From the NCBI GenBank assembly GCA_016806145.1, contig CP063166.1, positions 372,001 through 436,000 of the forward strand: a DNA stretch of 64,000 nucleotides, in the 5' to 3' direction. The notes beneath the pieces were generated by a model. It did not search any database. It was not told where the DNA came from and worked only from the letters and a program-made list of their open reading frames with translations. This document shows, piece by piece, positions 15,702-27,741 of the stretch (its first letter is position 1; the number at the start of each line of letters is the position of its first letter). Source of the stretch: Variovorax paradoxus. Its GTDB lineage: Bacteria; Pseudomonadota; Gammaproteobacteria; Burkholderiales; Burkholderiaceae_C. The position numbers were made by a program, and so were the translations under genes.

Positions 15702-16856
15702 ATGAAGACCATCGGCGACCAGCAGCTGCTCAAGCGCATGAACCGCAGCGTGCTGCTGCGGCTCCTGCGCGCTCAGCCGGGGCTGTCGCGCGCGCGGCTC
15801 GCGAGCGAGAGCGGCCTCACCAAGTCGACCGTGAGCCTGCTGGTGCGCGAGCTGCTCGACGAGGGCTGGCTCAGCGAATCGGGCGCCGCGGTGGCCGACG
15901 GGCTCGGGCGGCCCTCGACCCCGCTGCAGATCAATGTCGGCGTGCGCGCGCTCATGGGCATCGAGATCGCGGTCGACACGGCGCGGCTGGCCTGCGTCTC
16001 GCTGCAGGGCGAGGTGCTGCATTCGGACGAGCAGGCGCTGGCCGACAGCGCGCCGGCCGGCACCTGCGCCCAGGTCGCGCGCATGGCCGCGGCCGCGCAC
16101 CGTCGCCTGGCCGAGCGCGGGCTGCGGCTGTCGAGCATCGGCGTGTGCGTGCCGGGCGCGGTCGACGACTGCACCGGCGAGGTCCGCTTCGCGCCCAACC
16201 TCGGCTGGCGCAACGTGCGCCTGCTGCCGCTGCTCGAGGACGCGCTGGCCGCGGCCGGCCTCACGGGCGTGACGGTGCAGCTGCAGAACGATGCCGACGC
16301 CGCCGCGCTCGGCGAGTACGAGTTCGCCGCGGGCGAGGGCGAGGACCCGCTGATCTTCGTCAACTGCGACGTGGGCGTGGGCGCGGGCGTGGTGCTCAAC
16401 GACCGCCTGTTCACGGGCGCCCAGGGCATGGCCGGCGAGATCGGCCACACCATCCTCGCGCTCGACGGTCCGCCGTGCTCGTGCGGCCGGCGCGGCTGCG
16501 CCGAGGCCTTCTTCGGCGCCCGCGTGCTGGCGCGCGAGGGCGTGGACATGCAGCGCGCCGCCGCGCTGTTCGGCGTGCTGCTGCAGAACCTCTGGGTCAC
16601 CTTCAATCCGCGCGCCATCGTGCTCGGCGGCAAGTCCTGCGCCGAGCACCGCGGCTTCGCGCAGGCCGCCTTCGCGAGCGTCAAGCAGCATGCCGACGGC
16701 GCCGGCATGCCCGCGCCCGAGCTGCGCACCGCGCGCTACGACGCGCTCGCGCCCGCGGTGGGCGCGGCCGCGCTCGCGCTGCACGAGTACCTGCGGCCGC
16801 TGCAGCCCGATGCGCGGGCGCGGCGGGCGAGGGCGGCGCTGGGCGCGCGGGCCTGA
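15702..16856 (+). CDS. ROK-family transcriptional repressor
   Basis: 384 residues: an N-terminal winged HTH (about 10-70, LLKRMNRSVLLRLLRAQPGLSRARLASESGLTKSTVSLLVRELLDEGWL) joined to a ROK sugar-kinase-like domain. The zinc motif is complete, GEIGHTILALDGPPCSCGRRGCAEAFFG (His plus three Cys), and DVGVGAGVVLNDRL is the sugar-binding part. Such XylR/NagC-type proteins repress uptake genes until the sugar binds. It is 24 bp behind the ATPase in the same operon and its likely target is the dyad at 12374-12394. Effector probably xylose or a related aldose. Confidence 0.9.
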   Translation: MKTIGDQQLLKRMNRSVLLRLLRAQPGLSRARLASESGLTKSTVSLLVRELLDEGWLSESGAAVADGLGRPSTPLQINVGVRALMGIEIAVDTARLACVSLQGEVLHSDEQALADSAPAGTCAQVARMAAAAHRRLAERGLRLSSIGVCVPGAVDDCTGEVRFAPNLGWRNVRLLPLLEDALAAAGLTGVTVQLQNDADAAALGEYEFAAGEGEDPLIFVNCDVGVGAGVVLNDRLFTGAQGMAGEIGHTILALDGPPCSCGRRGCAEAFFGARVLAREGVDMQRAAALFGVLLQNLWVTFNPRAIVLGGKSCAEHRGFAQAAFASVKQHADGAGMPAPELRTARYDALAPAVGAAALALHEYLRPLQPDARARRARAALGARA

Positions 16857-17031
16857 GCTACCGGGACTCGCGAGTACCTTCGTCCACGCCGCGCCCGCGC
16901 GCTGCATACCTTGGTGCCCGTGCGCGCGATCTGCCGCGCCGCGCCGGGAGGCACATGCGCGAACCGCCTACGCCGACAGGGCGCGCACGGGACTACGGTG
17001 GGCGCTTGCCCGCCGTTCCGGAGTCCCCGTC

Positions 17032-19437
17032 ATGCCCTCGTCCACCCGTCCCCGCGCCAGCGCGCTGCTCCTCGTCCTCGCGCTGCTGATCGGACTGGCC
17101 GGCCTGGGGCTCGTCGTGGCGGGCGGCTGGCTGGTCGCGCTCGGCGGCTCCTGGTACTACCTGCTCGCGGGCCTGGGCCTCATTGCCACCGCGGCGCTGC
17201 TGCCGCGCGGCGGCGGGCGCGGCCTGATGGTCTATGCGCTGGTGGTCGCGTTCACGCTGGCCTGGGCGCTGTGGGAGGTGGGGCTCGCATGGTGGCCGAT
17301 GGCCGCGCGCGGCGACCTGTTCTTCCTGCTCGGCCTGCTGCTGCTCACGCCCTGGGTCGCGCGTGCGCTCGCGCGGCGCGATGGCGCCGGTGTCGTGGCC
17401 TCGCGCCGTGCGCTGAGCCTGGTGCTCGCGGCCTTCGCGGTGGCGGCCGTGCTGTCGTGGGTGCGCGGCGACGAGCGCCTCGAGGGCATCGCGCCGCAGG
17501 CCGATCCACCCTTCACCAGCGAGGCGCTGCCGCCCGCCGGCGCCGACTGGACGGCCTACGGCGGCACCGCCATGGGCCAGCGCTATTCGACGCTGGGCCA
17601 GATCACGCCGGTCAACGTGTCGCAGCTCCAGGAGGCCTGGCACTACCGCACCGGCGACGTGCGCGGCCAGCCCGGCGATCCAGAGGAGACCACCTTCGAG
17701 GTCACGCCGCTGAAGGTCGGCGAGCGGCTGTTCCTCTGCACGCCGCACCAGTCGGTGGTGGCGCTCAACGCGACCACGGGTCAGGAGCTGTGGCGCCACA
17801 CGCCGAAGATCGCGCCCTCGCTCGCGCTGCAGCATCTCACCTGCCGCGGCCTCTCGTACCAGCCGCCGCCGGCCGCGGCGCCGTCGCCCAACCTCTCGGC
17901 CGACGGCGCCTGCGCCGCCAAGCTGTTCATGCCCACGGCCGACGGCCGCGTGCTCGCGCTCGATCCCGAGAGCGGCAAGCCCTGCATGCGCTTCGGCGGC
18001 GGCAGCGGCCAGATCGACCTGTGGAAGAACATGCCCAACGTGAAGCCGGGCTCGTACTACGCGACCTCGCCGGTGGTCGTCACGCGCTCGCTGATCGTGG
18101 TGGGCGGCACCGTGCTCGACAACGTCTCGACGCAGGAGACCTCGGGCGTGATCCGCGCCTTCGACATCGAGACCGGCGCGCTGGTGTGGAACTGGGATTC
18201 GGGCCGGCCCGAGGACACGGCGCCGATCGGCCCGGGCCGGACCTATTCCGTCAACTCGCCCAACAGCTGGTCGATCTCGAGCGTGGACGAGAAGCTCGGC
18301 ATGGTCTACGTGCCCATGGGCAACCAGCCGCCCGACCAGTGGGGCGGCAAGCGCACCGAGGGCGCGGAGCGCTACGCATCGTCGCTGGTCGCGCTCGACC
18401 TCGCGACCGGCCGCGTGCGCTGGCATTTCCAGACCGTGCACCACGACCTCTGGGACTACGACGTGCCCGCGCAGCCCAGCCTGGTCGACCTGCGCGTGGG
18501 CAGTGTGCGCGTGCCGGCGCTGGTGCAGCCGACCAAGCAGGGCGAGCTGTTCGTGCTCGACCGCCGCACCGGCCAGCCGGTGGTGCCGGTGCGCGAGCAG
18601 GCCGCGCCGCAGGGCGCCGCGCAGGGCGACCGCACGGCGCCGACGCAGCCGGTGTCGGGCCTGTCCTTCGATCCGCCCGCGCTGCGGCCGGCCGACATGT
18701 GGGGCGCCACCGTGTTCGACCAGCTGGCCTGCCGGATCGCCTTCCACCGGCTGCGCTACGAGGGCCGCTTCACGCCGCCGTCGACGCAGGGCTCGCTGAT
18801 CTATCCGGGCAACTTCGGCGTCTTCAACTGGGGTGGCGTGGCGGTCGATCCGCAGCGCCAGATCGCGTTCGCCACGCCGGCCTCGCTGGCCTTCGTCTCC
18901 ACCTTGATCCCGCGCACCGACGACAGCACGCTCTACGTGCAGGGCGGCAAGCCGCCCGAAGGCAGCCTGCCGGCGCTCAACGAGAACTTCGGCGCGCCCT
19001 TCGCGGTGAAGCTCAAGCCCTTCACCTCGGCGCTCGGCCTGCCGTGCCAGGCGCCGCCCTGGGGCCACGTGGCCGCCGCCGACCTGCGCAGCGGCCAGAT
19101 CCTCTGGAAGCACAAGAACGGCACCGTGCGCGACAGCTCGCCGCTGCCGCTGCCGCTGCCCTTCGCGATGGGCGTGCCCAGCCTCGGCGGTCCGATCCTC
19201 ACGGGCGGCGGCGTGGCCTTCCTCTCGGGCACGCTCGACTACTACCTGCGCGCCTACGACGTGAACAGCGGCCGCGAGATCTGGCGCAGCCGCCTGCCCG
19301 CGGGCGGCCAGGCCACGCCGATGACCTACGAGGGCGCGGACGGCCGCCAGTACGTGGTGGTGGCCGCGGGCGGCCATGGCTCGCTGGGCACGCGCACCGG
19401 CGACCACGTGATCGCTTACGCGCTGCCCAAGCGCTAG
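17032..19437 (+). CDS. gcd: Membrane PQQ glucose dehydrogenase
   Basis: 801 residues, as in E. coli Gcd (796). The first ~145 residues hold five membrane segments (for example LLLVLALLIGLAGLGLVVAGGWLVALGGS). The periplasmic part is the eight-bladed PQQ propeller: DWTAYGGTAMGQRYSTLGQITPVNV, TCRGLSYQ, YVPMGNQPPDQWGGKRTEGAERYASSLVALDL, TVHHDLWDYDVPAQPSLVDL, and PWGHVAAADLRSG. It oxidises glucose and other aldoses (the family also takes xylose) to lactones and reduces ubiquinone. PQQ synthesis genes are not in the window. The start at 17032 is supported by the first membrane segment; the open frame from 16690 overlaps the ROK gene. The 175-bp gap upstream shows no clear promoter. Confidence 0.94.
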   Translation: MPSSTRPRASALLLVLALLIGLAGLGLVVAGGWLVALGGSWYYLLAGLGLIATAALLPRGGGRGLMVYALVVAFTLAWALWEVGLAWWPMAARGDLFFLLGLLLLTPWVARALARRDGAGVVASRRALSLVLAAFAVAAVLSWVRGDERLEGIAPQADPPFTSEALPPAGADWTAYGGTAMGQRYSTLGQITPVNVSQLQEAWHYRTGDVRGQPGDPEETTFEVTPLKVGERLFLCTPHQSVVALNATTGQELWRHTPKIAPSLALQHLTCRGLSYQPPPAAAPSPNLSADGACAAKLFMPTADGRVLALDPESGKPCMRFGGGSGQIDLWKNMPNVKPGSYYATSPVVVTRSLIVVGGTVLDNVSTQETSGVIRAFDIETGALVWNWDSGRPEDTAPIGPGRTYSVNSPNSWSISSVDEKLGMVYVPMGNQPPDQWGGKRTEGAERYASSLVALDLATGRVRWHFQTVHHDLWDYDVPAQPSLVDLRVGSVRVPALVQPTKQGELFVLDRRTGQPVVPVREQAAPQGAAQGDRTAPTQPVSGLSFDPPALRPADMWGATVFDQLACRIAFHRLRYEGRFTPPSTQGSLIYPGNFGVFNWGGVAVDPQRQIAFATPASLAFVSTLIPRTDDSTLYVQGGKPPEGSLPALNENFGAPFAVKLKPFTSALGLPCQAPPWGHVAAADLRSGQILWKHKNGTVRDSSPLPLPLPFAMGVPSLGGPILTGGGVAFLSGTLDYYLRAYDVNSGREIWRSRLPAGGQATPMTYEGADGRQYVVVAAGGHGSLGTRTGDHVIAYALPKR

Positions 19438-19441
19438 GAAC

Positions 19442-20437
19442 TCAATCGAGCTGCAGGCCCGCGTCCTGCGCCGCCTTCGGCAGGATCGCCAGTTCGCGCT
19501 TGAGCACCTCGGCGAAGGCCTCGGGCGTGTTGCCGGTCGCGGGCGCCACGCCGCCCAGGTCGTTGAGCCGCTTGCGGAAGGCCGGCTCGGCCGTGATCTT
19601 GGCGATCTTCTCGCCGAGCAGCTTGACCACCGCGGGCGGCGTCTTCGCGGGCGCGACCACGCCGAACCAGACGTCGAAGTCCACGCCGCCGGGCACGCCC
19701 TGCTCGGTCAGGGTCGGCACCTCGGGCCACAGCTCGGAGCGGCCGTTGCGCAGCTGGCCGATGGCCTTGAGCTTGCCCGACTGGATGAAGCTGCGCACGT
19801 CGCCCGTGCCCAGCAGGCCCCAGCTCACCTCGTTGGCCATCAGCGCCTGCACCAGCGGCGCGCCGCCCTTGTAGGGCACGTGCGTGAAGTTGCCGTCGGC
19901 GTTGGCGTTGAAGGCTTCCGACGCCAGGTGCGAGAGCCCGCCCGCGCCGGCCGAGCCGTAGGGCATGCCGCCCTTGCCGGCCTTCTTGCCCGCGGCCAGC
20001 AGTTCCTGCACGTTCTTGTACGGCGACTTCTCGGGCACCACCAGCAGCAGCGGCGCCAGCGACACGCGCGCGACCGGCACGAAGTCGGAAGCCTGGAAGC
20101 CCGCCTTCTTGTAGATGACCGGGTTGATCGACAGCATGCCCGTGAGCGTCACCGCCAGCGTGTAGCCGTCGGGCGGGCTCTGCACCACGTTGACCATGGC
20201 GATGTTGCCGCCCGCGCCGGGCCGGTTGTCGACCAGCACGGTCTGGCCCAGCTCCTCCTGCAGGCGCGGGCCCAGCATGCGCGCGGCCACGTCGGTGGCG
20301 CCGCCCGGCGGGTAGGGAACGACCAGGCGGATCGGCTTGGTCGGATAGGCCGCGTCCTGCGCCAGGGCGGCGCCGCCCAGGCCCAGGGCCAGGGATCCCG
20401 CCGTGACGACACGGCCGATGAGGGTGAGGGTACGCAC
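19442..20437 (-). CDS. Bug-type TTT solute-binding protein
   Basis: 331-residue periplasmic receptor of the tripartite tricarboxylate transporter (TctC/Bug) family. A signal peptide ends ALAQ (about 27). Typical: YPTKPIRLVVPYPPGGATDVAARMLGPRLQEELGQTVLVDNRPGAGGNIAM, PPDGYTLAV, GSAGAGGLSHLASEAF, VPYKGGAPLVQALMANEVSWGLL, VPTLTEQGV. The start is a GTG at 20437, 6 nt behind AGGAGC; no ATG fits. No TctA/TctB membrane subunits are nearby, usual for the expanded Bug genes of Burkholderiales. It is last in an operon with two dehydratase subunits and a lyase-family enzyme, so its ligand is probably their carboxylic acid substrate. It converges with gcd, 4 bp apart. Confidence 0.92.
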   Translation of the reverse strand: MRTLTLIGRVVTAGSLALGLGGAALAQDAAYPTKPIRLVVPYPPGGATDVAARMLGPRLQEELGQTVLVDNRPGAGGNIAMVNVVQSPPDGYTLAVTLTGMLSINPVIYKKAGFQASDFVPVARVSLAPLLLVVPEKSPYKNVQELLAAGKKAGKGGMPYGSAGAGGLSHLASEAFNANADGNFTHVPYKGGAPLVQALMANEVSWGLLGTGDVRSFIQSGKLKAIGQLRNGRSELWPEVPTLTEQGVPGGVDFDVWFGVVAPAKTPPAVVKLLGEKIAKITAEPAFRKRLNDLGGVAPATGNTPEAFAEVLKRELAILPKAAQDAGLQLD

Positions 20438-20480: not shown

Positions 20481-21353
20481 TCAGCGGACCTCGTAGTGCG
20501 CCTGCCGTTCCTCGAGCGCATGCCAGCCGATGATGTGCTTGAAGTCGGCCATCGAGGTCTGCGCGAAGGGCAGGTCGGCGAAATCGCCCGAGCGGCGGCG
20601 CGCCAGTTCGCGCAGGTTGGCCTGCACCGTGTGCACGGTGGTCAGCAGGCCCGCGATCGGATAGCTCGCGAAGGCCGCCACGCTCTCGATCTGTTCGCGC
20701 GTCAGCGCCGTCATCCAGGTGCCGGCCATCAGCATCAGCGACAGCCGCCGGCCGCAGGCCTCGCGCAGCTGCGCCAGCTGCTCGTAGCGCTCGAAGGTGC
20801 GCGAGATCGGCTGGATCAGGTCGGCGCCGGCCTCGGCATAGCGCGCGGCGCGCTCGAGCGCCTCGCCCGGGTCCTGGGCATCGGTGCGCGCGACGATCAG
20901 CAGGTCGGGGTCGAGGCGCGCATCGAGCGCGGCCTTGATGCGCGCCACCGCGTCGTCGATGGACACCAGCGTGGAGGGCGCCGCGGCGGCCGGGCAGCGC
21001 TTGGGGCTGACCTGGTCCTCGAGCTGCAGCGCCGCGGCGCCGGCCTTCTCGAATTCGCGCACGGCCCGGCCCACGTTGAGCACGCTGCCGTAGCCGGTAT
21101 CGGCGTCGACGAAGATCGGCTTGCGCACCACGTTCGCCATGCGGTTCACGGTGGCGACGTTCTCGCTTAGCGTGTAGAGCTCCATGTCGGGCTGGCCCAG
21201 CAGCGCGGCCGAGACGCCGAAGCCGGTGCTGAAGATGCCGTCGAACTCGGACTGGTCGACCAGCAGGGCCGACAGCGCGTCCTGCGCGCCGCCGAACCAG
21301 AGCGTCGGGCCGTGGGTGATGCGCTGGCGCAGGGCCTGGCGGGATGAAGTCAT
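20481..21353 (-). CDS. PEP mutase/isocitrate lyase family enzyme
   Basis: 290 residues, a TIM-barrel enzyme of the family with methylisocitrate lyase, 2,3-dimethylmalate lyase, oxaloacetate decarboxylase and PEP mutase. Seen: FGGAQDALSALLV, GFGVSAALLGQPD, PIFVDADTGYGSVLNVGRAVREFEKAGAAALQLEDQVSPKRC, and LIVARTDA (Mg2+ and substrate residues). Odd: the active-site loop, usually K(K/R)CGH plus a Gly/Lys-rich stretch, reads KRCPAAAAPSTLVS; the Cys is kept but Gly-His is lost. The start at 21353 follows TGGAGA. It lies between the Bug receptor and the aconitase-type subunits and probably cleaves or decarboxylates their product; the exact reaction is unknown. Confidence 0.85.
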   Translation of the reverse strand: MTSSRQALRQRITHGPTLWFGGAQDALSALLVDQSEFDGIFSTGFGVSAALLGQPDMELYTLSENVATVNRMANVVRKPIFVDADTGYGSVLNVGRAVREFEKAGAAALQLEDQVSPKRCPAAAAPSTLVSIDDAVARIKAALDARLDPDLLIVARTDAQDPGEALERAARYAEAGADLIQPISRTFERYEQLAQLREACGRRLSLMLMAGTWMTALTREQIESVAAFASYPIAGLLTTVHTVQANLRELARRRSGDFADLPFAQTSMADFKHIIGWHALEERQAHYEVR

Positions 21354-21434
21354 CGTGTGTCTCCAGAAAAAGGGCGTGGCGACCCGACATGGGCGCTGCG
21401 CCATGAACTCACTGCAAGGGAAAGGAAGAAGGGC

Positions 21435-21950
21435 TCAGCTCGCGGGAACCACGCGGCGCTTCAGGTAGGGAATGAGTCCGCCCGCGTCGAGCATGCCGCG
21501 CTCGGATTCGGAGAAGGGCTGCAGCATCAAGGTCTGGCCCGAGCGCAGGTTCCTCACTTCGTTCGTGTCCCAGTCGACCGTCAGTGCGTCGCCGCGCGCC
21601 GTGGCCGCGCGGATGCCCGGGCAGCTCACGAGCGGAAAGCCCATGCTGGTCTCGCCGCGGAAGAAGCCCGGCGAGAAGGATTCGGCGATCACCGCCGCGA
21701 TGCCCAGGTGCCGCATGGCGCGCATGGCCGGATAGTGCGGATGGCCGTAGCCGAAGTTGTGGCCGCCGATCAGCAGATCGCCCTTCTGTACGCCGGCCGC
21801 GAAGTCGGGCAGGTAGTCGGCCATGGCCAGCGCGGCCAGTTCCTTCACGTCGGTGATCTTGATGTTGCGCACGCCGACGATCAGGTCGATGTCGTAGTCG
21901 TCTTCCTCGAAGACCCAGGCCGCGCGGCCGCGCAGGTTCACGAGGCTCAT
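21435..21950 (-). CDS. Aconitase-family dehydratase, small subunit
   Basis: 171 residues, the swivel-domain subunit of a LeuCD/dimethylmaleate-hydratase type enzyme. The overall pattern is clear (GDLLIGGHNFGYGHPHYPAMRAMRHLGIAAVIAESFSPGFFRGETSMGFPLV). Odd: where LeuD has NFGCGSSREHA, with the serine and arginine of the active site, this protein has NFGYGHPHYPA. The chemistry or substrate must differ from isopropylmalate dehydratase. Its ATG overlaps the large-subunit stop by 4 bp. Not the leucine-pathway LeuD: no leuB or leuA is nearby. Confidence 0.85.
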   Translation of the reverse strand: MSLVNLRGRAAWVFEEDDYDIDLIVGVRNIKITDVKELAALAMADYLPDFAAGVQKGDLLIGGHNFGYGHPHYPAMRAMRHLGIAAVIAESFSPGFFRGETSMGFPLVSCPGIRAATARGDALTVDWDTNEVRNLRSGQTLMLQPFSESERGMLDAGGLIPYLKRRVVPAS

Positions 21951-23230
21951 GCCGCGACTCCTTCGCGCGCCGCCGCCAGGTAGGGCCGCGGATCGGCGAT
22001 GCGGCCCTCGAGCGCCGAGGCCGCGACCACGGCCGCGTTGCAGATGTAGATCTCCGAATCCACGCTACCCATGCGCCCGGGCGTGTTGAGCGTGCCGGTG
22101 GACACGGCGCGCTGGCCGTCGCTCATGGTGGCGATGCGGCCGAAGCAGTAGTCGCAGCTCGGCGAGCTGATGAAGGCGCCGGCCTCGACCAGCACCTCGA
22201 TCAGTCCCTCGCGCGCGGCCGCCGCCATGATGGCCTTGGAGGTCGGCACCACGTGCAGCTGGAAGCCCGGCTGGATGCGGCGCCCGCGCAGCACCTCGGC
22301 CGCGATGCGCAGGTCCTCGAGCCGGCCGCTGGCGCACGAGCCCAGGTAGCCGGTGTGCACCTCCACGCCGGTGTAGTCCTTGAGATCGCGCGTGTTGGCG
22401 GGGCTCGGCGGAATCACGACGATGGGCTCCAGCGTCGAGACGTCGATTGTCACCACGCTGTCGTAGCTCGCATCGGCATCGGGATAGACCGGGTCGAGCG
22501 CGATCTTCGAGCGGCCCCGCACATAGTCCAGGGTCTTCGCATCGGGCGCGATCAGCATCGTGGTCGCGCCCAGGAACATGGCCTGGCCGCAAAGGGTCTG
22601 GCGGCCCTCGATGCTCATGGCGTCGATCACCGGGCCGCAGAGTTCCACCACCTTGAAGCGGCAGGAGGCCGGGCCCATCACGCGCACCATGTGATGGAAC
22701 ACGTCGCGCGCCATCACGCCGGGCTGCAGCGTGCCCGTGAGCTCGACCTTCACGGTCGCGGGCACGGTCAAGGTCAGCGTCTCGGTCACGAAAGACTCGA
22801 GCACGCCCTTGCGCGCGCCGAAGGCGAAGGTGCCGAAGGCGCCGAGCTGGCTCACGTGGCCGTCGAAGTGCACGGCGAAGGCGCCCGGCGTGGCGTAGCC
22901 GAGCTCGGCCGCGACCTGGTGGCCGATGCCCTCGCGCTCGTGCACCGGCACGCCCTGTTCCTTGCCCCAGGCGCGGGTGATCTTGTGCAGTTCCTCTTCC
23001 TTCGGCGCGGTGGCCGGCACCATGTGGTCGATGAACAGCACGAAGCGCTCGGGGCTCGACACCTTCTCGATGCCGAAGTCCTCGCGCGTCTCCTTGAAGA
23101 ACACGTCGGTGTAGCCCGGGAAGTCGTAGGCGATCACGAAATCGGGCCGCGCCGTGATCTCCTCGCCGGGCACCACGCGCGGCCTGCCGGCGGCGCGGGC
23201 CAGGATCTTCTCGGTCATCGTCTGGGGCAT
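21947..23230 (-). CDS. Aconitase-family dehydratase, large subunit
   Basis: 427 residues, the Fe-S catalytic subunit of the LeuC/HacA/DmdA type. The 4Fe-4S ligands are present: one Cys in GYLGSCASGRLEDL and two in SPSCDYCFG. TMTEKILARAAG at the N-terminus, FIDHMVPA and GIGHQVA are typical. With the small subunit it should add or remove water on a branched dicarboxylic acid. Candidate substrates from known relatives are citraconate/methylmalate, 2,3-dimethylmaleate or isopropylmalate; the neighbouring lyase-family gene fits the DmdAB plus dimethylmalate-lyase pairing of nicotinate breakdown, but this is inference. First gene of the operon, divergent from an IclR regulator. An ATG four codons downstream is a possible alternative start. 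Confidence 0.88.
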   Translation of the reverse strand: MPQTMTEKILARAAGRPRVVPGEEITARPDFVIAYDFPGYTDVFFKETREDFGIEKVSSPERFVLFIDHMVPATAPKEEELHKITRAWGKEQGVPVHEREGIGHQVAAELGYATPGAFAVHFDGHVSQLGAFGTFAFGARKGVLESFVTETLTLTVPATVKVELTGTLQPGVMARDVFHHMVRVMGPASCRFKVVELCGPVIDAMSIEGRQTLCGQAMFLGATTMLIAPDAKTLDYVRGRSKIALDPVYPDADASYDSVVTIDVSTLEPIVVIPPSPANTRDLKDYTGVEVHTGYLGSCASGRLEDLRIAAEVLRGRRIQPGFQLHVVPTSKAIMAAAAREGLIEVLVEAGAFISSPSCDYCFGRIATMSDGQRAVSTGTLNTPGRMGSVDSEIYICNAAVVAASALEGRIADPRPYLAAAREGVAA

Positions 23231-23247
23231 CTTGTTCGGCTTTCGAC

Positions 23248-23264
23248 TTCCACGATGTGGCAGT
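23248..23264 (-). promoter_or_regulatory. Candidate IclR operator, copy 1
   Basis: On the minus strand this reads ACTGCCACATCGTGGAA, 17 bp upstream of the dehydratase start. It contains the small palindrome CCAC-ATC-GTGG. The same 17-mer, with one change, lies in the opposite orientation at 23331-23347; similarity reaches further on both sides. Two matching sites in a 111-bp divergent gap next to an IclR gene make this a strong operator candidate. Confidence 0.7.
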
Positions 23265-23330
23265 CATTGGTTTTCGATCCACCGATTACAGTCGAGCCAA
23301 CATCCCTCCCATTGGGGAGCAACCCGAATT

Positions 23331-23347
23331 ACTGCCGCATCGTGGAA
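23331..23347 (+). promoter_or_regulatory. Candidate IclR operator, copy 2
   Basis: ACTGCCGCATCGTGGAA on the plus strand, the mirror partner of 23248-23264 (16 of 17 positions equal). It covers the GTG chosen as start of the IclR gene, so binding here would block that gene's own expression, while copy 1 would control the dehydratase operon. Confidence 0.7.
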
Positions 23348-24190
23348 ACTAAACGCCGAACCACCGCCAAGACCGCTTCGCCACCGACCGCCGGCGGCGC
23401 GCGCTCGGGCACGCAGAGCATCGAGCGCGTGGTGGGCATGCTGCGCGTGGTGGCCTCGCGCGGGCGGCGCGGCATGCGCATCGCCGACGTCGTGAGCCTC
23501 AGCGGCCTGCCGATGTCGACCTGCTTTCGCATGCTGCAGCGGCTCGAGGTCGAGGGCCTGCTGGTGCGCGACCTGCTCACGCGCAAGTACCACCTGGGTC
23601 CACTGCTGCACGAGCTCGGCATGCTGGCCCAGCCGCGCTACCACCTGAGCGAGCTGTGCGAGCCGGCGCTGCGCACCATCGCCGAACTCACGCAGGACAC
23701 GGTCTACCTCAGCGAGCGGCGCGGCCCCGAATCGATCTGCACCAGCCGCGCGCTCGGTGCCTATCCGATCAAGGCGCTGACGCTCGACGTCGGCATCCGC
23801 CGGCCGATGGGCGTGGGCGCCGGTGGCCTCGCGATCCTCAGCGCGCTGCCCGAGGCCGAAGCCGAACTGATCGTGGCCTCCAACGAGGCGCGCTATGCGA
23901 AGTTCGGCGCCGCCTTCGCGCCGGGATTCCTGCGCGAAGCCATCGCGCAGACGCGCGCGCAGGGCCACTCCTTCCTCGACAGCGCGGCCACGCCGGGCGC
24001 GGCGGCCATCGGCGTCGCCTTTCCGCCCGACAACCCGATCGCGGCCGTGAGCGTGGCCGCGATCTCCAGCCGCATGGGACCGGCGCGCCGCGCCGAGGTG
24101 GCGAAGATCATCGAGCAGCAGGTGCGCGCGATCTGCGTGCTGCTCGAATCGCAGCCGGTGGAGGCGGGCTCGGGCCGCGAGGGCGAGTGA
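23342..24190 (+). CDS. IclR-family transcriptional regulator
   Basis: 282 residues with an N-terminal winged HTH (TQSIERVVGMLRVVASRGRRGMRIADVVSLSGLPMSTCFRMLQRLEVEGLLVRD) and a GAF-like effector domain (YHLGPLLHELG, DTVYLSERRG, RPMGVGAGGLAILSALPEAE, GVAFPPDNPIAAVSVAA). Such regulators respond to small acids. The start is uncertain: GTG 23342 is preferred; a TTG at 23312 and an ATG at 23254 are in frame but add non-conserved residues. It is divergent from the dehydratase operon, with a repeated site in the gap, and is most likely its local regulator. It ends 1 bp from the convergent next gene. Confidence 0.9.
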   Translation: METKRRTTAKTASPPTAGGARSGTQSIERVVGMLRVVASRGRRGMRIADVVSLSGLPMSTCFRMLQRLEVEGLLVRDLLTRKYHLGPLLHELGMLAQPRYHLSELCEPALRTIAELTQDTVYLSERRGPESICTSRALGAYPIKALTLDVGIRRPMGVGAGGLAILSALPEAEAELIVASNEARYAKFGAAFAPGFLREAIAQTRAQGHSFLDSAATPGAAAIGVAFPPDNPIAAVSVAAISSRMGPARRAEVAKIIEQQVRAICVLLESQPVEAGSGREGE

Positions 24191-24191
24191 G

Positions 24192-25460
24192 CTAGCTTTC
24201 TCCCGGCTCGTCGCTCCCTTGCTCCCAGCCGCGCAGGCGCCGGTACAGCGTGCCGCGCGACACGCGCAATTGCCGCGCCGCCTGCGACACGTTGCCGCCG
24301 TGCGCGGCCAGCGTGTCCTCGATCAGCTTGCGGCTGTGCTCGCGCAGCGTACCGGCCTGCGGCAGGGCCGGCGCATCGGCGGACTGCAACACCGTTGCGT
24401 CTTCCTGCTGCATCTGCTGCTGCGGTTCCTGTGCCGGCGTCGGCGCTTGCACCTCGACGCGCTGCGGCAGCGCCACCGCATGCCCGAAGTCGATGCCGTC
24501 GGCCCCCTGCAGCCGCGCCTGCACCCACACGCCGAGCCCGCTGGCCAGCCGCAGCGGCTGCGCCGATTCGCGCCGGCCCAGCCGCAGCAGGCTCGCGAGG
24601 TCGTGGCCCAGCAGGCATTCGACGCCGCGCGCATCGGGCTGCTCGGGCAGGTGGCCGATGAGCCGCGCGCCCGCGCCGTTGAGCCAGGCGATGGTGCCGT
24701 CGGCGGCGATGCCCGCGAGTCCCTCGAGCGGCGTGCCCAGCAGCGTGGGGCTGGCCTGGAAGCGCAGGATCAGCTGTTCGCGCGACTGCGCCTGCAGCAG
24801 GCGGTTCTCGATCGTGGTCGCATAGAGCGCCACCATCGAGGCGGCATCGAAGCCGAAGCGCTGCGCCTCCACCGTGAGGTCGAGCACGCCCGCGAGCCGC
24901 CCGTCGACACCGCGGATCGGCGCCGCGGCGCATTGCATCTCGCGCAGCACGTCGAAGTAGTGCTCGGCGCCGTCGACCGTGCAGGCCAGCCCGGTGCTCG
25001 CGACGATGCCCGGCGCGGTGGTGCCCACCATGCGCTCGGAGATGTTCACGCCCACGCGCGCGGTCTTGCGCAGCACCGGCTGGTGCGCGGGCGCGGACTC
25101 CTGCGTGACGTGCACCACCACGCCGTCGCGGTCGGTGAGGATCACGCGGCAGTCGGTGCCCGCGAGCGAATGCTCCATGGTCGCGAGCTCCTGGCGCGCC
25201 ACCTCGAGCAGCTCGCGGTTGCGCGCCAGCGTGGCATGCAGCCGACTCGGCGTCACGGGGTCGAAGGGCACGATGCGCTGGCGGTCGCTGTGGGTGCGGC
25301 TGCAGCGCATCCACGACTGCAGCACCGCCTCGCCGACGAGGCCCGAGGGCCGCACGCCTTCTTCGAAGAACTGCTGCCGCGCGAGCGCCACGCGCTGTGC
25401 CGGCGTGGTGGCGAAGAGTTGGCGCGGCGCGTTCGCCGTGCCCAGCCTGTCGAGGGTCAT
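24192..25460 (-). CDS. GAF/Fis-type regulator lacking AAA+ domain
   Basis: 422 residues. The N-terminal half resembles AcoR-type activators (GVRPSGLVGEAVLQSWMRCSR, TDCRVILTDRDGVVVHV, GVNISERMVGTTAPGI, GAEHYFDVLREMQCAAAPIRGVDGRLAGVLDL: GAF sensor), then a PAS-like part (ILRFQASPTLLGTPLEGLAGIAADGTIAWLNGAGA), a Gln/Ala/Pro linker, and a Fis HTH at the end (LIEDTLAAHGGNVSQAARQLRVSRGTLYRRL). No Walker A, GAFTGA or other AAA+ motif exists, so it cannot remodel sigma-54 polymerase and must act in another way. Divergent from the quinoprotein alcohol dehydrogenase, which it probably controls. Start 25460 keeps the conserved N-terminus. Confidence 0.85.
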   Translation of the reverse strand: MTLDRLGTANAPRQLFATTPAQRVALARQQFFEEGVRPSGLVGEAVLQSWMRCSRTHSDRQRIVPFDPVTPSRLHATLARNRELLEVARQELATMEHSLAGTDCRVILTDRDGVVVHVTQESAPAHQPVLRKTARVGVNISERMVGTTAPGIVASTGLACTVDGAEHYFDVLREMQCAAAPIRGVDGRLAGVLDLTVEAQRFGFDAASMVALYATTIENRLLQAQSREQLILRFQASPTLLGTPLEGLAGIAADGTIAWLNGAGARLIGHLPEQPDARGVECLLGHDLASLLRLGRRESAQPLRLASGLGVWVQARLQGADGIDFGHAVALPQRVEVQAPTPAQEPQQQMQQEDATVLQSADAPALPQAGTLREHSRKLIEDTLAAHGGNVSQAARQLRVSRGTLYRRLRGWEQGSDEPGES

Positions 25461-25510
25461 GTGCCATCGCCTCCGTGGGGGGATCGGGGACCGGGGACCA
25501 GCATCGAATG

Positions 25511-25527
25511 TGTTCCGCAATGGAACA
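25511..25527. promoter_or_regulatory. Palindromic site upstream of PQQ dehydrogenase
   Basis: TGTTCC-GCAAT-GGAACA, a perfect 6+5+6 inverted repeat in the middle of the 142-bp divergent gap between the Fis-type regulator and the dehydrogenase. It is the best candidate for the regulator's binding site. No sigma-54 -24/-12 element was found near it. Confidence 0.6.
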
Positions 25528-25602
25528 GCACCGGATCGGGGAAATCCCGAAGGTGAACGCGCGCGCCGCCCGGACGATTCTCTGGGCACAAGGAGACCCA
25601 CG

Positions 25603-27741
25603 ATGACGAGAAGAAGGAATTCCTCCGCGCTCGCGGTACTGGGGGCGCTGGCCGCCGCGTGGCTGCTCGCGGCCGCATCGATCGCCTCGGCGCAGGGCGG
25701 CGGGCCCACGCCGCAGGACCGTGCCGCCGCCGCCGCCAAGCGCGTCGACGGCAGCTTCATCCGCGCCAACGCGGCGCAGAAGCAGACGCCCGACTGGCCC
25801 AGCATCGGCCTGGACTACGCCGAGACCCGCTTCAGCAAGCTCGACCAGGTCAACGCGGGCAACGTGAAGCAGCTGGGCCTGGTCTGGTCCTACGACCTGC
25901 AGTCCACGCGCGGCGTCGAGGCCACGCCGCTGGTGGTCGACGGCATCATGTACGTCACGGCTTCGTGGAGCGTGGTGCATGCGATCGACACGCGCACCGG
26001 CCAGAAGCTGTGGACCTTCGATCCCGAGGTCGACAAGTCCAAAGGCTTCAGGGGCTGCTGCGACGTGGTGAACCGAGGCGTTGCGTTGTACGAGGGCAAG
26101 GTCTACGTGGGCGCCTACGACGGCCGCCTGATCGCGCTCGATGCCGCTTCCGGCCGCAAGCTCTGGGAGAAGAACACCATCGAGGGCCAGAAGGGCAGCT
26201 ACACCATCACCGGCGCGCCGCGCGTGTTCAAGGGCAAGGTGATCATCGGCAACGGCGGCGCCGAGTACGGCGTGCGCGGCTACATCACGGCCTACGACGC
26301 GGCCAGCGGCGAGCAGAAGTGGCGCTGGTTCACCGTGCCCGGCGATCCCGCCAAGCCCTTCGAGAACGAGGCCATGGCGCGCGCCGCCAAGACCTGGGAC
26401 CCCGACGGCAAGTACTGGGAGGCCGGCGGCGGCGGCACCGTGTGGGACTCGATGGCCTTCGATCCCGAGCTCAACCTGATGTACATCGGCACCGGCAACG
26501 GCTCGCCCTGGGCCCACAAGGCGCGCAGCCCCAAGGGCGGCGACAACCTCTACCTGGGCTCGGTGGTCGCGCTCAATCCCGACACCGGCAAGTACGTCTG
26601 GCACTACCAGGAGACGCCCGGCGACAACTGGGACTACACCTCCACGCAGCCGATGATCCTGGCCAACATCAAGGTCGACGGCAAGCAGCGCAAGGTGGTG
26701 CTGCATGCGCCGAAGAACGGCTTCTTCTTCGTCATCGACCGCACCAACGGCAAGTTCATCTCGGCGAAGAACTTCGTCGAGGTCAACTGGGCCACGGGCT
26801 ACGACAAGAACGGCCGCCCGATCGAGATCGCCGCCGCGCGCCAGAACGAGAAGCCCGGCGACAGCATCCCCGGCCCCTTCGGCGCGCACAACTGGCACCC
26901 GATGTCCTTCAATCCGCAGACCGGCCTGGCCTACCTGCCCGCGCAGCACGTGCCGCTGAACCTGATGGACGACAAGGACTGGAAGTTCGACCAGAACGCG
27001 CCGGGCCGTCCGCATGCCGCGCTGGGCTGGAACACCGGCAAGTTCGCCAACGTCGAGCCGCCCACGAGCAAGCCCTTCGGCCGCCTCGTGGCCTGGGACC
27101 CGGTCAAGCAGAAGGAGGCCTGGGGCGTGGACTATGCGTCGCCCTGGAACGGCGGCACCCTGACCACCGCGGGCAACCTGGTGTTCCAGGGCACGGCCGA
27201 CGGCCGGCTCGTGGCCTACGACGCGCGCAACGGCGACAGGCTCTGGGAGACCCCCACCGGCACCGGCGTGGTCGCCGCGCCCGCCACCTACATGGTCGAC
27301 GGCAAGCAGTACGTGTCGGTGGCCGTGGGCTGGGGCGGCGTCTACGGCCTCGCGCAGCGCGCCACCGAACGGCAGGGTCCGGGCACCGTCTACACCTTCG
27401 CGGTCGGCGGCACGGCCAAGATGCCGGACTTCGTGCAGTACCGCATGAGCAAGCTGGTGCAGGGCGTGAAGTACGACCCCGCCAAGGTCCAGGCCGGCAC
27501 CATGCTCTACGTCAGCAACTGCGTCTTCTGCCACGGCGTGCCGGGCGTGGACCGCGGCGGCAACATCCCGAACCTCGGCTACCTCGATTCCGCGTACATC
27601 GAGAACCTCGACAAGTTCGTGCTCAAGGGCCCGGCGATGGCGCGCGGCATGCCCGACTTCACGGGCAAGCTCTCGGCCGACGACATCGAGAGCATCAAGG
27701 CCTTCATCCAGGGGACGGCGGACGCGATTCGTCCGAAGTAG
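25603..27741 (+). CDS. Quinohemoprotein alcohol dehydrogenase
   Basis: 712-residue periplasmic enzyme: signal peptide ending ASAQ (about 31), PQQ propeller, then a C-terminal cytochrome c domain with CVFCH (about 643-647). The sequence is very like Comamonas-type quinohemoprotein ethanol dehydrogenase. The neighbouring-cysteine pair is at about 152-153 (RGCCD). The catalytic Asp lies in GDNWDYT; two residues later there is Thr, not the Asp that marks lanthanide enzymes, so Ca2+ is the expected metal. It oxidises primary alcohols and passes electrons through its own heme to an acceptor such as azurin or a cytochrome. Start 25603 follows AAGGAG. No PQQ synthesis genes are in the window. Confidence 0.94.
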   Translation: MTRRRNSSALAVLGALAAAWLLAAASIASAQGGGPTPQDRAAAAAKRVDGSFIRANAAQKQTPDWPSIGLDYAETRFSKLDQVNAGNVKQLGLVWSYDLQSTRGVEATPLVVDGIMYVTASWSVVHAIDTRTGQKLWTFDPEVDKSKGFRGCCDVVNRGVALYEGKVYVGAYDGRLIALDAASGRKLWEKNTIEGQKGSYTITGAPRVFKGKVIIGNGGAEYGVRGYITAYDAASGEQKWRWFTVPGDPAKPFENEAMARAAKTWDPDGKYWEAGGGGTVWDSMAFDPELNLMYIGTGNGSPWAHKARSPKGGDNLYLGSVVALNPDTGKYVWHYQETPGDNWDYTSTQPMILANIKVDGKQRKVVLHAPKNGFFFVIDRTNGKFISAKNFVEVNWATGYDKNGRPIEIAAARQNEKPGDSIPGPFGAHNWHPMSFNPQTGLAYLPAQHVPLNLMDDKDWKFDQNAPGRPHAALGWNTGKFANVEPPTSKPFGRLVAWDPVKQKEAWGVDYASPWNGGTLTTAGNLVFQGTADGRLVAYDARNGDRLWETPTGTGVVAAPATYMVDGKQYVSVAVGWGGVYGLAQRATERQGPGTVYTFAVGGTAKMPDFVQYRMSKLVQGVKYDPAKVQAGTMLYVSNCVFCHGVPGVDRGGNIPNLGYLDSAYIENLDKFVLKGPAMARGMPDFTGKLSADDIESIKAFIQGTADAIRPK

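Follow-up and report, generated by a model that had tools for sequence, protein, structure and literature searches.

A conserved Variovorax gene cluster pairs an aconitase-superfamily enzyme carrying a histidine loop with a KRCP-type lyase

Introduction

Can an aconitase-type enzyme work without the serine that serves as its general base? This question is raised by a gene cluster in a 64,000-nucleotide stretch of the Variovorax paradoxus genome (contig CP063166.1, positions 372,001 to 436,000; hereafter the window), an assembly of 9.44 Mb in three contigs. Four genes in series on the minus strand encode the large and small subunits of an aconitase-superfamily protein, a lyase of the phosphoenolpyruvate (PEP)-mutase/isocitrate-lyase family and a TctC/Bug periplasmic binding protein; a gene for an IclR-family regulator diverges from them. 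Pfam assigns Aconitase, Aconitase_C, PEP_mutase/ICL, TctC and IclR domains to the cluster. The two subunit genes overlap by 4 bases, and the nearest relatives of the cluster are found in Variovorax.

In the available excerpt of PMC8184944, the Ser642 alkoxide of aconitase is the general base that accepts the proton, and the iron-sulfur (Fe-S) cluster is a Lewis acid. The available excerpt of PMC7308503 describes the loop sequence GSSRE as highly conserved in the small subunits of isopropylmalate isomerase (IPMI) and in related aconitases, and describes a substrate recognition region. A first-pass annotation of the window recognized the operon, with the Bug gene outside the interval 20481–23230 that it covered, and read two altered active-site motifs, one in the small subunit and one in the lyase. 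Both are present, and the substrate pocket of the large subunit, which that annotation missed, is altered too. The altered motifs are fixed in the beta- and alphaproteobacterial relatives read, they co-occur, and they are matched by coordinated large-subunit substitutions. Together with the placing of the large subunits in one long-stemmed clade, these sequence features give good support to the annotation's proposal that the substrate or the chemistry differs from those of LeuCD, DmdAB and PrpB.

Results

The small subunit carries GHPHY in place of GSSRE

Residues were counted in 86 small and 86 large subunits, those of the window and of 85 further loci. Five of the 85 came from other Variovorax genomes, and 80 were kept from a scan of GTDB species representatives with two peptide patterns, in which 277 stretches matched either pattern and encoded a relative. 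Aligned with Methanocaldococcus jannaschii HacB, the window sequence NFGYGHPHYPA faces NFGCGSSRE, the loop that the first-pass annotation had named for LeuD, and the flanks align too. By this alignment H70 takes the place of Ser642, P71 that of Ser643 and H72 that of Arg644. The protein also aligns over nearly its full length with PDB entries 3vba, 1v7l and 2pkp (MJ1271), with GHPHY exactly over GSSRE. An alignment artifact was ruled out, since the NFGxG frame and the downstream blocks align in all three of these relatives.

NFGYGHPHYP is exact in all 86 small subunits; a looser loop pattern returned no match for 11 of the 85 owing to flanking residues, and direct reading finds the loop in every one. 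Among the best 120 of 1283 database proteins, 117 have GYGHPHYPAM[RK] and the remainder have HPHD (one) or HPHF (two). Where these 120 are named, most are called 3-isopropylmalate dehydratase or LeuD/DmdB family. The loop is not a common LeuD variation in this sample, because GSSRE was read in 28 of 30 LeuD-type matches given as loci. The two others are L144, whose HPHY marks it as a family member itself, and L139, which has GSAME. The L139 small subunit (genome G210) has a partner large subunit that retains S166, N258, E262 and R447. Within the window genome, LeuD-type domains at the eight loci shown have GSSRE in five cases, and three lack a match to the loop pattern.

K31 is present in 86 of 86 small subunits. 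It occupies the position of R26, part of the YLRT specificity loop, in M. jannaschii HacB; the corresponding loop of the window protein is NIKI. The LeuCD equivalog TIGR02084 scores 93.7 bits against a cut-off of 245.85. An AlphaFold model of the single chain matches 3vba and 2pkp in Foldseek, with template-modeling (TM) scores of up to 0.74.

The substrate pocket of the large subunit is altered

Large-subunit residues were mapped to bovine aconitase (mAcn) from the printed alignment, numbered from Cys358. The first-pass statement that the three Fe-S cysteines remain is borne out (C299, C359 and C362). These cysteines and the equivalents of D100, H101, H147, D165, H167 and R452 are retained in all 86 sequences; the window residues D68-H69 correspond to D100-H101. 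By contrast, the window differs from bovine aconitase at S166G, N170Q, N258G, E262F, T359A, N360S, N446T and R447L. We compared these positions in an outgroup of 13 large subunits, one of which is partnered by the GSAME small subunit; for another, L122, the partner loop was not read. All 13 have S166, E262 and R447, and 12 have N258; the N170, T359, N360 and N446 places differ from one outgroup to another and carry no diagnostic weight. All 86 family members have G, F and L where LeuCD is expected to have S166, E262 and R447.

A maximum-likelihood tree was built from 29 family large subunits (picked from the 86) together with the 13 outgroups. A branch with 100/100 support sets the family apart, on a stem of 2.81 changes per column; the exact sister of the family is uncertain because the outgroup branches are long. 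The nearest NCBIfam models, PRK00402 (377.1 bits; cut-off 385) and TIGR02086 (344.3; 410.15), fall short of their cut-offs, and so does the LeuCD equivalog TIGR02083 (297.5; 610.65). The aconitase and swiveling-domain folds are nevertheless recognized by Pfam and by Foldseek searches of the AlphaFold models (against 3vba/2pkp and 4kp1/5acn), with a TM score of 0.67 between the large-subunit model and 4kp1. The models are of single chains; they give folds and are uninformative on the joint active site.

The family resembles LeuCD, methanogen-type IPMI and homoaconitase (MJ0499, MJ1003, MJ1271) in its separate subunits, folds, three Fe-S cysteines and NFGxG frame, but differs from them in GHPHY and in the S166, N258, E262 and R447 equivalents. 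Aconitase X (AcnX), a cis-3-hydroxyproline or phosphomevalonate dehydratase in the available parts of PMC8184944 and PMC10040528, offers a precedent for a branch of the superfamily whose site has diverged and whose substrate is non-classical. In the A. tumefaciens enzyme Ser70 is the proposed base and the cluster ligands are altered (PMC8184944, same excerpt), whereas the window family retains the classical cysteines and loses the serine. Membership in AcnX was ruled out, as no AcnX family appears among the Pfam or NCBIfam matches and the classical cysteines remain.

The lyase keeps its catalytic cysteine in a KRCP motif

Where E. coli PrpB has KRCGH, the window lyase has KRCPAAAAPS. The motif change noted in the first pass is thus partial: G124 and H125 are replaced by P and A, and the lysine, arginine and catalytic cysteine are retained. 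The lyase shares with PrpB its fold family, metal ligands, the Lys-Arg-Cys of the gating loop and R158, and differs further at F186 (Q), E188 (I) and N210 (L); PrpB residues are numbered as in the alignment, where the chain numbering is shifted by one. The changed PrpB residues presumably face the second product.

Among 85 aligned lyases, D85, D87, E114, K120, C122 and R158 are invariant and R121 is present in 84, which agrees with the earlier view that the metal-site motifs are kept. The residue after the catalytic cysteine is proline in 84 and methionine in one; I185 and L208 occur in all 85 and Q183 in 84. KRCPA is found in 120 of 120 lyases listed among the database matches. The sequence belongs to the PEP-mutase/isocitrate-lyase superfamily by its PF13714 score and its D85, D87, E114 and C122, but not to PrpB: the best NCBIfam model, prpB, scores 163.1 bits against a cut-off of 354.4. 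Like the large subunit, the lyase is under the cut-offs of all NCBIfam models that it matches. The window genome has 13 matches to the family; among the nine listed, the window protein has KRCP against KRCGH or KKCGH in six, and two further ones have no such cysteine in one case and an unreadable loop in the other. Among the PDB relatives of the lyase is 2,3-dimethylmalate lyase (3fa3).

DmdAB and dimethylmalate lyase follow the same logic, with a hydratase and then a PEP-mutase-family lyase. The window enzymes would differ from them in the rebuilt loop and in KRCP. Characterized proteins with the window motifs were looked for, and none was found in PDB sequence searches, NCBIfam equivalog models or the open-license literature searched. 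Nor did we recognize a paper treating this cluster in the open-license literature, which misses most subscription papers. A mercaptosuccinate link through PMC5373536 was dropped, the available excerpt of that paper holding nothing relevant.

The three enzyme genes travel together under purifying selection

In each of the 80 loci the genes of the two subunits sit side by side. A lyase gene on the same strand is found no more than 5 kb away in 79, the exception (L070) ending 0.6 kb past the small subunit, and an IclR gene is present in 74; these are the co-occurrence counts that the first-pass annotation had called for. In two of the further Variovorax genomes (L126 and L127) the lyase is on the far side of IclR. 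A survey of 100 Variovorax genomes (E up to 1e-30 for the small subunit, 1e-150 for the large and 1e-75 for the lyase) found the small subunit in 24, the large subunit in the same 24 and the lyase in 25. When 397 genomes were sampled evenly from the phylum, own genome included, the small subunit (E up to 1e-35) was found in five, each time as a member of the window's family. The module is thus accessory and patchily distributed.

The ratio of non-synonymous to synonymous substitution rates (dN/dS) was 0.06–0.31 in 15 comparisons, indicating purifying selection, and distance correlations were 0.80–0.92. These ratios and the invariance of the motifs rule out decay to pseudogenes, which had been thought unlikely from the start. 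The cluster can be described as a fixed, co-inherited and dedicated variant inside known superfamilies.

The lyase motif is not fully exclusive to the hydratase pairing. The extra lyase-positive Variovorax genome, G021, is a fragmented assembly without the pair, and its KKCP lyase is 43% identical to that of the window. On its contig (L167, 354–3733) this lyase has an SMP-30/gluconolactonase-like gene on one side and a Bug gene on the other, after which comes an HpcH/HpaI aldolase gene. This context is possibly that of a lactone-fed sister pathway.

A palindrome marks the operon, and the transporter varies

Two facing copies of TTCCACNATGYGGCA lie between the IclR and large-subunit genes. In the window the sequence has two matches with at most one mismatch, against 0.03 expected; in the whole genome it has two exact matches, both at this cluster, and a reversed control has none. 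Directly upstream of the large subunit, the palindrome (at most one mismatch) is present in at least two copies in 12 of the 80 loci and in one copy in 21, with none in 47; elsewhere in the 80 loci it has a single match. We infer that the palindrome is likely the operator to which IclR binds. If so, the regulon would consist of just this operon, and in betaproteobacteria the pathway should then need no enzymes beyond these and central metabolism.

A Bug orthologue (tblastn above 250 bits) is present in 37 of the 80 loci and a Liv-type (Peripla_BP_6) binding protein in 36 others; none has both. The seven in neither set are L043, L064, L067, L068, L070, L078 and L081. Four of them (L043, L064, L070 and L081) carry families that accompany Liv-type binding proteins elsewhere, read by eye as permeases and ATPases, and L078 ends shortly past the lyase. 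In L067, genes for a tripartite ATP-independent periplasmic (TRAP) transporter (DctP/DctM by Pfam) stand beside the triad, and L068 has the same gene families. Because the transporter type varies and the three enzyme genes are constant, the cluster would serve the uptake and breakdown of one compound.

Alphaproteobacterial loci carry further enzymes

Twenty-four loci (L062 to L088 minus L070, L071 and L085) are mostly named as Alphaproteobacteria or orders within them, and some simply as Proteobacteria. Recurrent in this group are a metallo-beta-lactamase-fold hydrolase (13 loci), a GlcD-like flavin adenine dinucleotide (FAD) oxidase (11), a long alpha/beta hydrolase (10) and an IclR gene (19). 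The first three families were found neither in the other 56 of the 80 loci nor in the stretch of the window compared. Their nearest families are, respectively, lactonases, D-lactate/glycolate dehydrogenases, and hydrolases of the enol-lactonase or C-C type. These enzymes hint at lactone or ester precursors, without naming one.

Discussion

We consider it reasonably probable that the cluster is a self-contained, IclR-controlled catabolic module, which imports an organic acid on which the histidine-loop Fe-S hydro-lyase acts, so that the lyase can cleave the product to a 2-oxo acid and a second fragment. The acid would be taken up by the Bug protein or, in relatives, by a Liv-type ATP-binding cassette (ABC) or TRAP transporter. 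Together, the large and small subunits would make up a heterodimer of the aconitase superfamily with a [4Fe-4S] cluster and hydro-lyase activity. Because the Fe-S ligands are in place along with the H101-type acid, this enzyme probably still adds or removes hydroxyl at the cluster. It has lost the serine base and the residues around the carbanion-side carboxylate, with His70 and His72 the likeliest replacements, and Lys31 may still read a distal anionic group. The resulting hydroxy acid (we infer this direction of catalysis) would be cleaved by the cysteine lyase at its conserved metal/2-oxo-acid site to a glyoxylate- or pyruvate-type 2-oxo acid, and the second fragment would meet recognition residues that differ from those of PrpB. 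Since both enzymes are altered on the second-carboxylate side, they probably share one substrate that lacks this group or has another in its place. More tentatively, and short of calling it probable, we propose a new catalytic branch of the aconitase superfamily, with His-Pro-His-Tyr for Ser/Ser/Arg, a histidine as the base and a matching KRCP lyase, acting on an acid without the usual second carboxylate in an undescribed route that carries the label 3-isopropylmalate dehydratase.

Several points weigh against this interpretation. The evidence for it is sequence evidence: gene order, conservation, substitutions, conserved palindromes and purifying selection. The residues were mapped by sequence alignment, and for residues of mAcn and PrpB beyond Ser642 and the cysteines the roles are presumed. 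The two AlphaFold models have modest mean predicted local distance difference test (pLDDT) scores (73.7 and 76.5), and the small-subunit model is below 50 at loop residues 68–71 and at 18–32, which hold K31. The small subunit barely passes TIGR02087, a LeuD/DmdB-like subfamily model (115.8 bits; cut-off 108.95). The distance correlations could stem from shared transfer rather than co-adaptation. Lastly, among the large-subunit matches in 24 Variovorax genomes, that of G088 has one internal TAG, and the 3.7 kb lyase contig of G021 contains neither subunit.

The cluster might be of the ordinary LeuCD/DmdAB kind, hydrating or isomerizing a known dicarboxylate (citraconate, mesaconate, itaconate, maleate or dimethylmaleate) and cleaving the malate derivative in the manner of dimethylmalate lyase or PrpB, with the altered residues tolerated. 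We regard this as rather unlikely, although the two-step layout fits DmdAB and dimethylmalate lyase, 3fa3 is a relative of the lyase, TIGR02087 is passed, Lys31 could still read a distal anionic group, and Bug proteins and TRAP transporters carry carboxylates as a rule. Such an enzyme would have to do without both the Ser642 general base and the GSSRE loop (as given in the available excerpts of PMC8184944 and PMC7308503, respectively), which are gone in 86 of 86, as well as R447 and S166, and its lyase scores under half of the prpB equivalog cut-off. Loss of the general base and of several substrate ligands would also fit a pair that is no longer a hydro-lyase, being some other isomerase or a regulatory or scaffolding partner of a lyase that does the chemistry, as would the related KKCP lyase of G021, which lacks the pair. 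We find this very unlikely: the cluster cysteines and the D100/H101, H147/D165 and H167 equivalents persist in 86 of 86, and an invariant new loop argues for catalysis, not for its loss.

A substrate derived from a lactone or ester would refine our explanation more than oppose it. The mostly alphaproteobacterial clusters would then be the fuller pathway, comprising a lactonase-like enzyme of the metallo-beta-lactamase fold, an FAD-linked GlcD/D-lactate-dehydrogenase-like oxidase, a long alpha/beta hydrolase, the hydro-lyase and the lyase. The three additional families in the 24 loci and the gluconolactonase-like neighbor of the G021 lyase speak for it; the failure to find these families in the other 56 loci or in the stretch of the window compared, the predicted operator that marks this operon alone, and the breadth of the enzyme classes make it unlikely as it stands. 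In the excerpts of PMC8184944 and PMC7308503 available, Ser642 and GSSRE are classical hallmarks of the aconitase family, and their fixed replacement is widespread, given the 277 GTDB stretches. If the histidine-loop heterodimer is active, it would show how an Fe-S hydro-lyase gets by with another base, and its substrate would define a further catabolic route in Variovorax and Alphaproteobacteria.

Gene features and neighborhood

Feature coordinates are collected in Table 1. The lyase start was picked from the family alignment and the Bug start was our choice, each inside a longer open frame; the IclR domain matches were scored on the longer frame 23207–24190.

Table 1. Features of the cluster, in window coordinates.
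Feature	Position	Strand	Basis
NFGYGHPHYP loop of the small subunit, in place of NFGCGSSRE	21729..21758	-	alignment; exact in 86/86
K120-R121-C122-P123 motif of the lyase; catalytic Cys retained, Gly-His of KRCGH gone	20991..21002	-	P123 84/85, C122 85/85
Span of Fe-S cysteines C299, C359, C362 (mAcn C358, C421, C424)	22145..22336	-	C in 86/86
G124 at mAcn S166 place	22859..22861	-	G in 86/86; S in 13/13 outgroups
G215 and F219 at mAcn N258 and E262 places	22574..22588	-	F219 86/86; 215 is G in 82, C in 4
L381 at mAcn R447 place	22088..22090	-	L in 86/86; R in 13/13 outgroups
Large subunit, aconitase-superfamily hydro-lyase (Fe-S subunit; predicted), 427 aa	21947..23230	-	Pfam Aconitase 225 bits
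Small (swiveling-domain) subunit, 171 aa	21435..21950	-	TIGR02087 115.8 bits
PEP-mutase/isocitrate-lyase-family lyase	20481..21353	-	PEP_mutase 130.4 bits (PF13714)
TctC/Bug periplasmic binding protein	19442..20437	-	PF03401 207 bits
Divergent IclR-family regulator, start codon uncertain	23342..24190	+	Pfam HTH_IclR and IclR_C
Palindromic predicted operator copy 1, TTCCACGATGTGGCA	23248..23262	+	palindrome scan
Palindromic predicted operator copy 2, TTCCACGATGCGGCA	23333..23347	-	palindrome scan

Two pyrroloquinoline quinone (PQQ)-dependent dehydrogenases flank the cluster, at 16795–19437 and 25153–27741, both on the plus strand; the second ends in a C-terminal cytochrome c domain. Between it and the IclR gene, at 24192–25496 on the minus strand, is a regulator with a C-terminal Fis-type helix-turn-helix.

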